Below are positions 43,487 through 48,736 of a stretch of 58,515 nucleotides of DNA, in pieces. Numbering within the stretch: the stretch's first letter is position 1; every line of letters starts with the position of its first letter. The position numbers were made by a program, and so were the translations under genes. The notes under the pieces are model-generated. The model did not search any database. It saw only the letters and a program-made list of their open reading frames with translations, and was not told the origin of the DNA. The DNA is taken from positions 1 to 58,515 of the forward strand of contig DASTWL010000092.1 of assembly GCA_035765895.1 (NCBI GenBank), read 5' to 3'. Source of the DNA: Verrucomicrobiia bacterium. Its GTDB lineage: Bacteria; Verrucomicrobiota; Verrucomicrobiia; Limisphaerales; DSYF01.

Positions 43487-45367
43487 GTGAGCCATTCCTC
43501 CGCACCGAGCCCGGAAGTTCCCGCCCCGGAACCGGCCAATCTGCCGGCGGGCTGGAAGGTCGTGCGTCAGGGTGAAAACCTGATTGTCGTGGCGGCGCTT
43601 GCGGCCATGACGCTGCTGCCCGTGGTGGAGGTGGCGTTGCGGCAATTCTTCAAGACCGGCGTCCCGGCCTCGGCCACGATGGTGCAGCATCTCGTGCTCG
43701 CCGTCGGGATGCTCGGCGGCGCGCTGGCGGCGCGGGAAAACCGGCTGCTCTCCCTTTCCGTTGCGACGCACTGGCTCAAGGACGGCTGGCTGACGGCGGC
43801 GCGGGTGTTCAGCAATGGCTTTGCGGCCGCCATCAGCGCCCTGCTGACGGCGGCCAGCTGGCAGTTTGTCATGTCGCAGCGCTCGCTCGGGCAGGAGTTT
43901 GCCTTTGGCATTCCGCGCTGGGTGGTGCAGTCGCTCATTGTTGTCGGCTTCGCGCTGGTGACCGTGCGGCTGGTGTGGCACGCCGCCGATCGCTGGCGCT
44001 GGCGCGCGGTCACGCTGGTTCTCGCGGCGGGCTTCATTGCGGTGGCCCTGGACGCGGGCATTCCGCCGGAAAATCTCCGCTGGCCGGCCATGATTGTGCT
44101 GCTGCTGGCGGTGATTTTTGGCGCACCCATTTTTACGGCGCTTGGCGGCATTGCGCTCATCATGCTGTGGTCCGGCGGCGAGCCGGTGGGGCCGATTCCG
44201 CTGAAACATTACCAGCTCACGGTCAACGCCACCCTGCCAAGCCTGCCGCTGTTCACGTTGGCGGGTTACTTCCTTGCGGAAGGCGGCGCGGCGAAACGGC
44301 TGGTGCGCTTGTTCCAGGCGTGGTTTGGCAGCCTGCGCGGCGGGCCGGCGATTGTGACGACGCTGGTGTGCGCGTTTTTCACTTCGTTCACCGGCGCCTC
44401 GGGAGCCACCATTCTGGCGCTGGGCGGCGTGTTGATGCCGGTGCTGGTTTCCGCGCGTTACGCGGAACGTTCTTCGCTTGGCTTGCTGACCGGTGCGGGC
44501 TCGCTTGGCATGCTGTTTCCCCCGTGCCTGCCGCCGATTCTCTACGCCATCATCGCCAGCAGCGGCGGCGAGGTGAGCATTGGCATCAAGGAAATCTTTC
44601 TCGGCGGCTTCCTGCCCGGGCTGCTGCTCGTGGGGTTGACGGTTCTGTGGGGGCTGCGCATCGGCAAGCGGGCGGGCGATTCCGCGCGCACGCCGTTCGT
44701 GGCGCGCGAAGCGTGGGCGGCCACCTGGGCGGCGAAGTGGGAGCTGCTCGTGCCCGTTGTCGCCCTGACGTCGCTGTTCAGCGGTTTTGCGACGCCGGTG
44801 GAGGCCGCGGCGCTGACGGCGTTTTACACGTTCGTGGTGAGCGTCGTGATTCAACGCGACCTGCACCTGTTCCGCGACGTGCCGCGTGTGATGACGGAGT
44901 GCGGTCTGCTCATTGGCGGCGTGTTGCTGATTCTCGGCGTGGCGCTGGGTTTCACCCATTACCTGATTGACGCGCAAATTCCCGACCAGGCGGTCGCGTG
45001 GGCGACGACGACGATTCATTCCAAATGGATTTTCCTGCTGGTGTTGAACGTGGTGCTGCTCGTCATCGGGGGACTGGTGGAGATTTACGCGGCGATCGTC
45101 GTGGTGGTGCCGCTGCTGGTGCCCATTGGCGCGGCGTTCGGCATCGACCCGGTGCATCTGGGCATCATTTTTCTCGCCAACATGGAACTCGGCTTCCTGG
45201 CGCCGCCGGTGGGGATCAATTTGCTGCTCGCCTCGTATCGCTTCAACAAACCGATGAGCGAGGTGACGCGCGCATCCCTGCCCATGCTGGCCGTGATGGT
45301 GATCGGAGTGTTGCTGATCACCTACGTGCCGTGGCTGACGACGTGGCTGCCCGGACTGTTCAAATGA
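43487..45367 (+). CDS. TRAP transporter fused small and large membrane subunit (DctQM)
   Basis: 626 residues. Residues 1-190 are the DctQ-like part with four helices; residues about 195-626 are the DctM large subunit (FGAPIFTALGGIALIMLWSG, FTLAGYFLAEGGAAKRLVRL, SFTGASGATILALGGVLMP, LTGAGSLGMLFPPCLPPILY, ELGFLAPPVGINLLLA). It imports the solute bound by DctP, using an ion gradient. Start is a GTG at 43487, 10 nt after dctP. The natural fusion of Q and M occurs in some TRAP systems; its combination with TatT is less common. A hairpin at 45380-45396 follows. Confidence 0.92.
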   Translation: MSHSSAPSPEVPAPEPANLPAGWKVVRQGENLIVVAALAAMTLLPVVEVALRQFFKTGVPASATMVQHLVLAVGMLGGALAARENRLLSLSVATHWLKDGWLTAARVFSNGFAAAISALLTAASWQFVMSQRSLGQEFAFGIPRWVVQSLIVVGFALVTVRLVWHAADRWRWRAVTLVLAAGFIAVALDAGIPPENLRWPAMIVLLLAVIFGAPIFTALGGIALIMLWSGGEPVGPIPLKHYQLTVNATLPSLPLFTLAGYFLAEGGAAKRLVRLFQAWFGSLRGGPAIVTTLVCAFFTSFTGASGATILALGGVLMPVLVSARYAERSSLGLLTGAGSLGMLFPPCLPPILYAIIASSGGEVSIGIKEIFLGGFLPGLLLVGLTVLWGLRIGKRAGDSARTPFVAREAWAATWAAKWELLVPVVALTSLFSGFATPVEAAALTAFYTFVVSVVIQRDLHLFRDVPRVMTECGLLIGGVLLILGVALGFTHYLIDAQIPDQAVAWATTTIHSKWIFLLVLNVVLLVIGGLVEIYAAIVVVVPLLVPIGAAFGIDPVHLGIIFLANMELGFLAPPVGINLLLASYRFNKPMSEVTRASLPMLAVMVIGVLLITYVPWLTTWLPGLFK

Positions 45368-45460
45368 CATCCAACTCGGGCGGACCGTATGTCCGCAATT
45401 CGGGTCCGCACCGCTGAAGGGAATTTTCCCGGTCGGTGGCGGACTGACCTTTGAAACTTT

Positions 45461-45802
45461 ATGAACCCCACCGAAATTCCCCCGCCGCTGCCCGGCGAAG
45501 CGCCGCCCATGGCGGTCCGCCGCATCAACTGGTTCCTGTTTTTCGCCGTGCTGCTCGCGCCGCCGGTTCTCACGTTGCTGACGGCGATGGCCGGGTGGCA
45601 GAGCTTCCCGGTCGCGTGCCCGTTCGTTGGCGGCGCGCTGGCGGGCCTGGTCTGCGGCATTCAACTCGCGCGCCGGCTCGGCCAGACGACGAATGCGGTC
45701 GTGCTCCTGAGCTTTGCGTTCTTCATCGTGTTCGGCGCGCTGAGTTTTGCGCTGTGCTTCACGGGGTGCCTGCTGGGCAATTACAATTTCAACGTCCACT
45801 GA
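45461..45802 (+). CDS. Small three-span membrane protein, unknown function
   Basis: 113 residues with a Pro-rich N-terminus (EIPPPLPGEAPP) and three membrane helices (about 25-45, 50-72, 80-103); cysteines lie in or next to helices 2 and 3. No family recognised. The stop at 45802 is one nucleotide before the GTG of the radical SAM gene, so the two are translated together and it may anchor or feed that enzyme. The gap of 93 nt before it (45368-45460) holds a hairpin at 45380-45396 and no clear promoter. Confidence 0.65.
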   Translation: MNPTEIPPPLPGEAPPMAVRRINWFLFFAVLLAPPVLTLLTAMAGWQSFPVACPFVGGALAGLVCGIQLARRLGQTTNAVVLLSFAFFIVFGALSFALCFTGCLLGNYNFNVH

Positions 45803-45803
45803 C

Positions 45804-47198
45804 GTGGCCATTCGCGATTCATTGCCCCGGTTGCGGCTGACGGATGAACTGCTGAAGCGCACTACGTCGCGCTGTCCCGTTTGTCACGCGCCCTGTCCGG
45901 CGGAAGTCTGGCGCACGGGGTCAATTCCCGCGCGCGTCCTGCTCAAGCGCCTTTGTCCGACGCATGGCGAGGCGAGCGTCTGTCTCGCGTCCGATGCGCG
46001 CTTTTACTGGCTGGCCAAGGGCCGGCCGGAGAACGCGTGTTGCTCCGGCGGGGCAGCTTCGCCCGGCACCTGCTGCTCGGCGGACGGTTCGAACGTTGGC
46101 ACGCTCGGTCGCAATGCCCATCCCGGCGACGCCGTGGGCGTGATGGAAAAATTGTCCACCTGCCTCGCTCTCATCGAAATTGTTCACTCGTGCAACCTTG
46201 CCTGCCCGACGTGCTACGCGGATTCGCCGCCCGGCGCCGCCGCGCGGGTGGATGCCGTGCCGTTGGCGGACTTGCAACGGCGCATTCAAGGTGTGATTGA
46301 CCGCAAAGGCGGCATTGAGATTTTGCAACTGTCCGGCGGTGAACCCACGTTGCACCCGCAATTCTTCGAGCTGCTCCGGTGGCTCCACGCCCAGCCCGGC
46401 ATTGATTACGTGCTGCTGAACACGAACGGCGTCCGCGTGGCGCACGACGAAGCCTTCGCGCGGGAACTCGCGGCGACATTCCGCCCCGGCCGGTTCCAGC
46501 TTTACCTGCAATTCGATGGTCCGCAGGCGGCGGGCCAGGAATTCCTGCGGGGCGCGGATTTGCGGGCGACGCGGGAGCGCTGCCTCGAACGTTGCCGGGA
46601 AATGAAACTGCCGGTCACGCTCGCGATGACCGTGACGCCGGAGAATCTGGCGTTCCTGTGGGAGGCGATTGAATTTGGCCTGCGCTGGCCCAACGTGCGC
46701 GGCATCAGCTTCCAGCCAATGTTCGGCAGCGGGCGCATGCCCGCGGCCAAGCCGGCGGCGCGTTTGAACACGGCGGACATCATTCTGGCGGCGGTCGCGC
46801 AATCGGCCGGCTGTTTGCGGTTTGAAGATTTCACGCCTCTGCCGTGCGGCGACCCGAACTGCGCCACGATCGGTTATTTGTTGAAGCTGGACGGTCAGGT
46901 GCGGTCGGTGAGCGACTTCGTTGATTTTGCGAACGTGCAGGATTTTCTGGGCACGAAGGTGCGCTACCGGCTGGAGGACTTGATGAAGTGCGGATGCGAA
47001 TCCGAGCCGCTGGGCGACCTGCTCAAGCAATTCGAGCTGGACGAGACGCACACGTTCCGGCTGTTCATCAAGCCCTTCATGGACGCGTTGACGTGGGACG
47101 AGGATCGCATTGACCGCTGTTGCACGCACGTCATCCGGCCGGACGGAAAGCTGGATTCGTTCTGCCGTTACTACTCCGGATTCGCCGATTGCCGATGA
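45804..47198 (+). CDS. Radical SAM enzyme of the Tes/MJ0619 (tetraether lipid synthase-like) family
   Basis: 464 residues. The family includes archaeal tetraether synthase and MJ0619, which couple or methylate at unactivated carbon. N-terminal zinc-ribbon-like cysteines (CPVCHAPCPAEVW, residues 24-31, and CPTHG, 51-55) precede the radical SAM core: cluster CNLACPTC (C130, C134, C137), GGEP at 178-181. The C-terminal region has further cysteines (PCGDPNC, KCGCES) and ends CCTH-...-SFCRYY, as in that family. Residues 78-91 (ACCSGGAASPGTCC) form an unusual double CC insert where the family normally has GCP..CG.C. GTG start, coupled to the upstream gene, and its stop overlaps the next start by 4 nt. 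Confidence 0.82.
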   Translation: MAIRDSLPRLRLTDELLKRTTSRCPVCHAPCPAEVWRTGSIPARVLLKRLCPTHGEASVCLASDARFYWLAKGRPENACCSGGAASPGTCCSADGSNVGTLGRNAHPGDAVGVMEKLSTCLALIEIVHSCNLACPTCYADSPPGAAARVDAVPLADLQRRIQGVIDRKGGIEILQLSGGEPTLHPQFFELLRWLHAQPGIDYVLLNTNGVRVAHDEAFARELAATFRPGRFQLYLQFDGPQAAGQEFLRGADLRATRERCLERCREMKLPVTLAMTVTPENLAFLWEAIEFGLRWPNVRGISFQPMFGSGRMPAAKPAARLNTADIILAAVAQSAGCLRFEDFTPLPCGDPNCATIGYLLKLDGQVRSVSDFVDFANVQDFLGTKVRYRLEDLMKCGCESEPLGDLLKQFELDETHTFRLFIKPFMDALTWDEDRIDRCCTHVIRPDGKLDSFCRYYSGFADCR

Positions 47199-47932
47199 AT
47201 GTCTCCACTGCCTACGGCTGGCTGATGCTTGCGGGCATCGGCGTCAGCATTGGGCTGTGGACGCGCGTGGCGCGGCGGGATGCGCGGCTCGTGGTAATTT
47301 ACGTGGCGGCGCTGGCGGGCGCCTTTCTGGGGGCCAAACTGGTCTATCTCGCGGCGGAAGGCTGGCTGCACTGGCACGACGCCAATCGCTGGCTCGTGCT
47401 GGCCACTGGCAAAAGCATCACGGGCGCGCTGCTCGGGGGTTACGCGGGCGTCGAAATCGCCAAGCGGCTGGTGGCCCATTCCGGCGCGACGGGCGACTGG
47501 TTCGCGGTCATCGCGCCGCTGGGCATCATGCTGGGCCGCGTGGGCTGCCTCTTGCACGGCTGTTGCCTGGGCCGCGTGTGTGCGCCGGCGTGGTATGCCG
47601 TGGGGGACACGGCGGGCGTGGCGCGCTGGCCCGCGGCCGCCACGGAATTGCTCTTCAATGCGCTGATGCTGGGAACGGTTCTCTGGCTGCGCCGACGTAG
47701 AATTTTCTCCGGCCAGCATTTTCATCTCTACCTGATGGCGTATGGCGCCTTCCGGTTCGCGCACGAATTCTGGCGGGACACGCCGCAAATTTTGGGGCCG
47801 TTGACCGGGTATCAAATGGCGGCATTGGCGCTGCTGGCGTTGGGCGCGGTCCGTTTTCTTCAGCGCCGTTCCGCGGCGGTCGCCGGCGGTTCCAGAGCGT
47901 CGCCGATTGAAGCCGCGGGCCCGGTGCGCTAG
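47195..47932 (+). CDS. Non-canonical Lgt-like membrane protein
   Basis: 245 residues, about seven membrane helices. The overall pattern (KSITGALLGGYAGVEIAKRL, IAPLGIMLGRVGCLLHGCC, then HLYLMAYGAFRFAHEFWRD and LTGYQMAALALLALGAVRFL) fits the prolipoprotein diacylglyceryl transferase fold. The canonical Lgt signature GRxxNFINxE is replaced by LGRVGCLLHGCCLGR, which adds a His-Gly-Cys-Cys motif. Overlaps the radical SAM stop (ATGA). The pairing with a Tes-like enzyme suggests lipid or lipid-anchor modification; the acceptor is unknown. A true Lgt for the cell must lie elsewhere. Confidence 0.72.
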   Translation: MNVSTAYGWLMLAGIGVSIGLWTRVARRDARLVVIYVAALAGAFLGAKLVYLAAEGWLHWHDANRWLVLATGKSITGALLGGYAGVEIAKRLVAHSGATGDWFAVIAPLGIMLGRVGCLLHGCCLGRVCAPAWYAVGDTAGVARWPAAATELLFNALMLGTVLWLRRRRIFSGQHFHLYLMAYGAFRFAHEFWRDTPQILGPLTGYQMAALALLALGAVRFLQRRSAAVAGGSRASPIEAAGPVR

Positions 47933-47935
47933 AGT
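47907..47935 (+). promoter_or_regulatory. Promoter with -10 box 6 nt before M48 start codon
   Basis: TTGAAG, a 17-nt spacer and TAGAGT lie inside the end of the upstream gene. The -10 ends 6 nt before the ATG at 47942, leaving almost no leader. Confidence 0.6.
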
Positions 47936-47941
47936 CGCTGC

Positions 47942-48736
47942 ATGAAACGCACGAGGTTCGCAACGACGACGGGCTGGTTGTCCATTTTGCTGGCGGCGGT
48001 GCTGCTGGCGGGCTGCACCACGGTCCCGGAAACGGGCCGGCGGCAGTTCAACTTCATGACGCCCAGCGATGAAATGCAGCTGGGCTTTTCCGAGTTCGAC
48101 AAAATGAAGCAGGAAGTGCCGATCAACCACGATCCTGCCATCAACGCGCTGGTGCAGCGGGTGGGCAAACGCATTGCGGCGGTGGCGCCCCTGCCGAACG
48201 CGCAGTGGGAGTTCGTCGTGTTCGAGAGCAAGGAAGCGAACGCCTTCTGCCTGCCGGGCGGCAAGGTCGGCGTTTACACCGGCATCCTGCCCATCACGAA
48301 GGATGAAGCGGGCCTCGCGACCGTGCTCGGGCACGAAGTGGCGCATGCGGTGGCGCGGCACGGTGGCGAACGCATCAGCGAAGCGGTCGGGCTCCAGTTG
48401 CTCGGCGCGGTGGTGGATGCGTCCACCAGCAAGTCGAAGTATCACGACGCCTTTGTGGCCAGCTACGGTCTGGGCAGCCAGCTCGGGGCGGCTTTGCCCC
48501 ACAGCCGGCTCCAGGAATCGGAGGCGGACCACATCGGGCTCCTTTACATGTCCCGCGCGGGATACGATCCCGAGGAGGCGGTGAAATTCTGGCAGCGCTT
48601 TGCAGCCTTCAACCAGCAGCAGGGCGCGAATACGCCGTGGTTCCTGCGCACGCATCCGCTGGACGAAAAGCGCATCGAACAGTTGAAAGGCTGGATGCCG
48701 GAGGCCAAGGCGCAGTTCAAGCCGGCGGCGAATTGA
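47942..48736 (+). CDS. M48-family metallopeptidase lipoprotein
   Basis: 264 residues, lipobox LLAGC at 20-24, zinc site HEVAH (VLGHEVAHAVARHGGERI) with third ligand glutamate in ESEADHIGLLYMSRAGYD. This is the secreted BepA/LoiP-like branch, acting as a periplasmic protease or outer-membrane quality-control factor. Its promoter overlaps the end of the Lgt-like gene; it is therefore probably a separate transcription unit. No partner gene nearby; substrate unknown. The lipoprotein signal places it at the outside face of a membrane. Confidence 0.9.
   Translation: MKRTRFATTTGWLSILLAAVLLAGCTTVPETGRRQFNFMTPSDEMQLGFSEFDKMKQEVPINHDPAINALVQRVGKRIAAVAPLPNAQWEFVVFESKEANAFCLPGGKVGVYTGILPITKDEAGLATVLGHEVAHAVARHGGERISEAVGLQLLGAVVDASTSKSKYHDAFVASYGLGSQLGAALPHSRLQESEADHIGLLYMSRAGYDPEEAVKFWQRFAAFNQQQGANTPWFLRTHPLDEKRIEQLKGWMPEAKAQFKPAAN

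Follow-up and report, generated by a model that had tools for sequence, protein, structure and literature searches.

The described systems closest to the locus reported here are the radical SAM enzyme Tes/GDGT-MAS (MJ0619; PDB 7TOL/7TOM; NCBIfam NF045702), the TrsS radical SAM (seleno)proteins (NF045646) and Lgt (TIGR00544; PDB 5AZB/5AZC). As reference we used the metal-site ligands of MJ0619, including Met439, as given in PMC9433317, and the essential Lgt residues given in PMC13251419. Two lipidation systems are also relevant. In MYXO-CTERM/myxosortase, a conserved Cys lies within a C-terminal membrane signal and Lgt-type lipidation has been proposed (PMC11980579), while the Skillet-1 lipocone, which has a GS-lipobox partner, is a predicted non-canonical lipidation enzyme (PMC12419801). 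Our literature search, with subscription papers and preprints outside its reach, returned no account of the radical SAM/Lgt pair, of the trio described below, or of a C-terminal lipobox together with a radical SAM enzyme, and the novelty of the system is regarded as provisional.

The window, that is, the whole stretch of DNA analysed, comprises positions 1-58,515 of contig DASTWL010000092.1 (58,515 nucleotides) from a Verrucomicrobiia bacterium (GCA_035765895.1; Verrucomicrobiota; Verrucomicrobiia; Limisphaerales; DSYF01).

Gene context and recurrence of the trio

As shown in Table 1, the plus strand carries a small membrane protein gene, a radical SAM gene and an Lgt-like gene in a row, with spacings of +1 nt and then -4 nt. 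The original prediction had taken these gaps as a sign of translational coupling, and the same coordinates were recovered. The trio was confirmed as a genuine gene set; third-position GC was 0.79-0.87 in all three genes, as in the neighbouring real genes. The Pfam search found Radical_SAM and an HMPTM Zn-ribbon in the second product and LGT in the third, and no family in the small membrane protein.

Table 1 Positions of the trio, its motifs and the variable stretch in the window
Feature	Position	Strand	Details
Small membrane protein	45461..45802	+	113 aa, ATG start, Pro-rich N-terminus, three predicted TM helices
Lipobox-like motif F-T-G-C, residues 100-103	45758..45769	+	closes the last TM helix; consensus across 72 distinct tails
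C-terminal tail LLGNYNFNVH, 10 residues	45770..45799	+	sequence
Radical SAM protein, Tes/TrsS superfamily	45804..47198	+	464 aa, GTG start, 1 nt past preceding stop
Rubredoxin-like site C24-x2-C27...C51-x2-H54	45873..45965	+	alignment to MJ0619 C9, C12, C33, H36
Radical SAM CX3CX2C motif, C130/C134/C137	46191..46214	+	alignment
C353, C439, C454	46860..47165	+	aligned with MJ0619 C338, C455, C470
Lgt paralogue	47195..47932	+	245 aa; 4 nt ATGA overlap with radical SAM gene
Lgt signature R116-VGCLLHGCCL-G127	47540..47575	+	aligns with E. coli R143...G154; Cys at N146 and E151
Trio-containing stretch missing from same-genus genome G001	45368..48010		comparison of flanks

Upstream of the trio lies a TRAP transporter (TatT, DctP and fused DctQM), and an M48 peptidase gene lies downstream. 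The DctQ and DctM parts of the transporter form one ORF at window positions 43487-45367, with the TatT and DctP genes upstream of it. In genome G001, of the same genus, the DctM and M48 homologues adjoin, with about 110 nt between the aligned flanks and the trio absent. Because G001 has the flanking genes without any trio gene, this suggested that the trio is one unit that can be inserted or removed.

A scan of GTDB contigs yielded 79 loci, and together with additional genomes there were 84 loci having both the radical SAM and the Lgt-like gene. The two genes were adjacent and on the same strand in all 84, in at least seven phyla, in line with the conserved adjacency that had been proposed as a check. 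The order was radical SAM to Lgt-like in 55/55 loci of the PVC type and was reversed in 28 of the 29 loci of the other subtype, which include Bacteroidota, Bacillota, Pseudomonadota, Acidobacteriota, Planctomycetota and Actinomycetota. The distances among the radical SAM proteins and those among the Lgt-like proteins, taken pairwise, co-varied (r 0.93 overall; 0.79 and 0.66 within the subtypes; 0/500 shuffles). A window-type radical SAM protein at 60% identity or more was found in 12 of 57 further sampled genomes, almost all belonging to the same order, and in 19/236 genomes of the class, the window's own included. Cultured genera with the system are Chitinophaga, Caulobacter, Brevibacillus and Haloferula.

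All-against-all clustering of the neighbouring genes revealed no further conserved operon enzyme, and it missed the small proteins because they have almost no sequence in common. Several longer membrane ORFs located between the two genes of the pair (L021, L027) received no convincing family assignment. Several Verrucomicrobiota loci, but not the window, encode upstream of radical SAM a conserved membrane protein of about 130-155 aa with no Pfam family (L022:5077-5547, L006:966-1436, L037:4767-5279, L066:5104-5499). A Mycobacterium avium plasmid (L113:5207-8527) carries in succession an Lgt-like gene, small genes and a divergent radical SAM gene, and one of its small gene products ends AGYC-TGLNPSDYRSY.

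The radical SAM protein and the Lgt paralogue

MJ0619/GDGT-MAS was the closest solved protein to the radical SAM protein by sequence (E 1e-31). The AlphaFold model (mean pLDDT 80, pTM 0.83) matched Tes (7TOM) with a TM score of 0.74 and E 2e-30, and the next protein followed at E 3e-9; SkfB, SuiB and anSME, which are peptide-modifying radical SAM enzymes, were among the next-best folds. No peptide-recognition domain or SPASM family scored above cut-off in Pfam or NCBIfam. These results supported a Tes/MJ0619 architecture. The original prediction had called this protein Tes/MJ0619-like, and its kinship with MJ0619, by far the closest solved structure, held up; membership of an unrelated family, which had been named as a refuting result, was not what was found.

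The metal sites were then compared by alignment. The rubredoxin quartet, the CX3CX2C motif and the three C-terminal Cys were all present, the last three as inferred from the alignment, in which MJ0619 C338, C455 and C470 read as putative ligands of a C-terminal auxiliary cluster. Lys423 occupies the position of MJ0619 Met439, and Lys is found there in 20/20 aligned PVC-type members. In the non-PVC subtype the equivalents of C338, C455 and C470 are lost. For the N-terminal cluster of MJ0619 (C73, C77, C80 and a His), C80 and C90 of the radical SAM protein align and MJ0619 C80 and H83 do not, in a poorly aligned loop which holds further Cys near these positions, and the cluster motif is rearranged compared with MJ0619.

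Orthology with Tes was ruled out by score and tree. The radical SAM protein reached 145 bits against NF045702, below the cut-off of 450, and bacterial Tes proteins of Acidobacteriota reached 472-619 bits. In the careful tree, the Tes clade (MJ0619 and bacterial Tes) excluded the radical SAM protein with 100/99 support, and the family grouped with TrsS-like proteins on the opposite side from Tes. Its best NCBIfam score was 209 bits against the TrsS model NF045646, which is below the cut-off of 490; in related pairs this score reaches up to 335. Monophyly of all Lgt-paired radical SAM proteins had a support of 85 in a quick tree, and the careful tree gives it no resolution. The tree placement thus went against a Tes assignment, and the membrane-spanning or ether lipids that had been suggested as products do not follow from a protein outside the Tes clade and below its cut-off. 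The view of MJ0619 as a methylase was not corroborated by its later study (PMC9433317).

Other members of the superfamily were observed in different surroundings. Tandem or nearby pairs of radical SAM paralogues of the Tes/TrsS superfamily without an Lgt-like gene occur at L161 and L179 (G168, G038). Plasmids L112, L114, L116 and L117, which are a Mycolicibacterium plasmid and haloarchaeal plasmids, carry a TrsS-like radical SAM gene with a DVU_1556-like methyltransferase gene directly after it, with thiol and sulfur genes near. In Acidobacteriota (L144-L147, L171-L177), a large Tes-like group (about 630-800 aa; 310-350 bits) is encoded in addition to true Tes over the cut-off; it is without the N-terminal cluster Cys and nested within the Tes clade.

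The third protein scored 86 bits against Pfam LGT and 42 bits against TIGR00544, below the cut-off of 118.9, and a canonical Lgt elsewhere in the window's genome scored 160 bits against TIGR00544. At least two LGT matches were present in 20/20 genomes searched, and the one next to the radical SAM gene was of the weaker kind. A stronger Lgt match is located elsewhere in all 20 genomes, which makes the radical SAM neighbour a paralogue. The E. coli Lgt positions kept in it are Y26 (in this subtype), G99, G142, R143, G145, G154, Y235, R239 and R246; within the essential set of Y26, H103, R143, N146, G154 and R239, the Y, both R and the G are kept, H103 is T and N146 is C. H103, an essential residue of the E. 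coli enzyme, is replaced by T, L or V in the paralogue family. The family shares the Lys of GK[ST]I, the residues GVExxK and the TG of TGD, none of which is common to the genome's own Lgt. The alignment showed that the phosphatidylglycerol-binding arginines are kept, and the protein is an Lgt homologue as originally proposed. The HGCC motif, which had been taken as a mark of an altered acceptor, was ruled out as such a marker: the genome's canonical Lgt carries GCLMTGCCFG, where N146 is also C, and N146C/E151C has been reported in distant Lgts (PMC13251419).

The small membrane protein and its terminal cysteine

The AF2 model of the small protein, of moderate confidence (mean pLDDT 75), places helices at residues 24-44, 52-73 and 77-110. 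Homologues are 18-44% identical, and G102 and C103 are the only invariant residues. Across 72 distinct tails the consensus is F(-3)-x-G(-1)-C, which is also that of the PVC type and of Verrucomicrobiota; in most cases 4-14 residues follow, and the last residue is H or R in 27 of the 72 (background 5.7%, P 9e-16). In Bacteroidota the residue at -1 is mostly I, V, A or T, not G, which makes a weaker lipobox. The small protein has the lipobox pattern [hydrophobic]-x-[G/A/S]-C and a preceding positive charge, which are found at its C-terminal helix and not at the N-terminus.

We counted small membrane ORFs, defined as 55-180 aa with at least two helices, within or adjoining the operons. A last helix closed by a Cys and followed by a short tail was found in 73/98 operonic ORFs, and a last-helix-end Cys in 3/17 in the distant flanks. 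The controls gave 1/22 across 769 kb of the window's genome with the trio's own left out, 0/10 in G001 (242 kb), and 0/13 beside Tes, 'large', methyltransferase-paired or unpaired relatives; the operonic frequency was significantly higher than in the pooled controls (73/98 versus 1/45, P 9e-18). Per locus, the automatic search found a tail-Cys ORF in 47/55 PVC-type loci and 9/29 others, with more found by eye. The pattern was first noticed post hoc, and three groups were searched again for previously unseen loci. In these fresh loci 23 of the 27 small membrane ORFs had the tail Cys, spread over 20/28 loci, and the radical SAM and Lgt-like genes were on one strand in 23/28, within a flank of about 1.5 kb. 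Pairs of Pseudomonadota and several of Acidobacteriota had no small tail-Cys ORF alongside when searched down to 35 aa.

Positively charged loops lie on the cytoplasmic side of the membrane, according to the positive-inside rule, and in 59/72 small proteins the loop preceding the last helix has a net positive charge; the tail Cys is therefore predicted to be periplasmic. Judged from hydropathy, charge and the single moderate AF2 model, it would lie outside, on the side where Lgt works. The small proteins diverge rapidly: in the nearest pair they are 43% identical, compared with 85% for the radical SAM proteins and 73% for the Lgt-like proteins, and their genes are frequently in tandem copies. 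Rapid divergence and tandem duplication fit substrates. The original prediction missed that the small protein is probably the acceptor, with a lipobox-like C-terminal Cys.

Several small proteins also bear Zn-ribbon Cys pairs at the N-terminus. About 1 kb upstream, some loci encode further small proteins that combine a Zn ribbon at the N-terminus with a single helix and an LFAGC-type C-terminal end (L037:4570-4848, L022:4863-5111, L006:713-1009), which may be extra substrates.

Proposed function and comparison with known systems

With all three parts taken into account, the simplest reading, and the one we prefer, is that the trio is a dedicated protein-lipidation module; we hold it tentatively, at somewhat short of an even chance. 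The small protein would sit in the membrane with its Cys ending the last helix at the periplasmic face, in lipobox geometry at the C-terminus. The Lgt paralogue would move a diacylglyceryl (or related glycerolipid) group from phosphatidylglycerol onto this Cys, as the tail pattern and the homology to Lgt suggest. The cytosolic Tes-like enzyme, judging from its fold, might take hydrogen from an alkyl chain and couple or otherwise modify the chain, so altering the lipid or the anchor, and the radical step could come either ahead of transfer or upon the lipidated small protein. The original prediction is supported in part, by the fold, the Lgt homology and the conservation, whereas Tes identity, the meaning given to HGCC and the methylase role do not. 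Several points count against a lipidation module: there are bare pairs with no small protein next to them, so that such a neighbour is not required for the pair to act; H103 is replaced in the Lgt paralogue; the radical SAM enzyme has its active site in the cytosol, whereas a periplasmic position is predicted for the Cys; and the -1 residue in Bacteroidota weakens the likeness to a lipobox.

In a rather unlikely alternative, close to the original prediction, the radical SAM protein couples or modifies acyl chains of free membrane phospholipids, the Lgt paralogue moves a glycerolipid group onto a non-protein acceptor and the small protein is an accessory subunit. The Tes fold with its rubredoxin-like and C-terminal cluster Cys, the phospholipid-site arginines kept in the Lgt paralogue, and the bare pairs agree with such a pathway. 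However, the radical SAM protein lies outside the Tes clade and below the Tes cut-off, Lys replaces Met439 in the PVC type, C338, C455 and C470 are lost in the other type, and the conservation of the small protein's terminal Cys would be left unexplained. Membrane-spanning lipids are, to our knowledge, not known from members such as Chitinophaga, Caulobacter and Pseudoxanthomonas, which also counts against it. If the small protein itself is the target of the radical chemistry, for example by a thioether or C-C link near the terminal Cys, the Lgt paralogue might recognise, anchor or present it. Hypervariable, duplicated small proteins near modifying enzymes do look like precursor peptides, and SkfB, SuiB and anSME are among the folds that follow Tes, but the match to the Tes structure is stronger by about 20 orders of magnitude, neither a peptide-recognition domain nor a SPASM family came out over cut-off, and the conserved Cys is predicted on the opposite side from the cytosolic enzyme. 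We consider peptide maturation unlikely. It seems still less probable that the small protein is a scaffold or redox helper, which keeps both enzymes at the membrane and whose unlipidated Cys binds metal or does thiol chemistry. The Cys as the sole feature common to the small proteins and the N-terminal Zn-ribbon pairs in several of them are consistent with this role, while rapid divergence and tandem copies are atypical of a scaffold, and F-x-G-C with a positive loop ahead of the helix resembles a lipobox.

The lipidation reading can be extended to a widespread system, in which small, fast-evolving polytopic membrane proteins receive a glycerolipid from the Lgt paralogue on a lipobox-like Cys at their C-terminus and the Tes-like enzyme alters the attached lipid by a C-C bond or otherwise, possibly tying it to another chain; this extension is doubtful. 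If lipidation by the trio is true, the set, which recurs in several bacterial phyla, would be an undescribed route to an unusual lipid-carrying protein, and bacteria of at least seven phyla would have a second pathway of the lipoprotein type, in which attachment is at the C-terminus and the lipid undergoes radical chemistry. The results also bear on lipid biomarker work. In a scaled blastp, broad-subtype members matched MJ0619 at E <1e-50 and about 30% identity, and they would therefore pass a threshold of the type by which PMC8941075 counted bacterial 'Tes homologues', though the query there was a different one, MA_1486, and these members are not Tes and have an Lgt paralogue alongside. For this reason, some of the bacteria inferred to produce membrane-spanning lipids may be miscounted.

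Compared with known systems, the radical SAM protein is like Tes in its whole-length fold, rubredoxin-like site, radical SAM motif and three C-terminal Cys positions, and unlike it in score, clade, rearranged N-terminal ligands, the change of Met439 to Lys and its Lgt-paralogue partner. TrsS gives the best NCBIfam score, and the methyltransferase-paired relatives lie on the same side of the tree; the score is nevertheless below cut-off, and those relatives adjoin DVU_1556-like methyltransferases with no tail-Cys small protein near. MYXO-CTERM, for which PMC11980579 describes no radical SAM partner, likewise has a conserved C-terminal Cys in a membrane signal with proposed Lgt-type lipidation, but there the Cys stands ahead of the helix, with an Arg-rich tail in the cytoplasm, whereas here the Cys comes after the helix and the tail is predicted periplasmic. 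The Skillet-1 lipocone is similar in that non-canonical lipidation is predicted for the enzyme and that it is coupled to a partner with a lipobox-like motif, and differs in its enzyme fold, in Ser instead of Cys and in a partner with extracellular domains. The paralogue is of the same fold family as Lgt and has most of its essential residues, R143 and R239 among them, and it is set apart by its score of 42 against 118.9 bits, the replaced H103, the family signature of GK[ST]I, GVExxK and TGD, and the canonical Lgt encoded elsewhere in the same genome.
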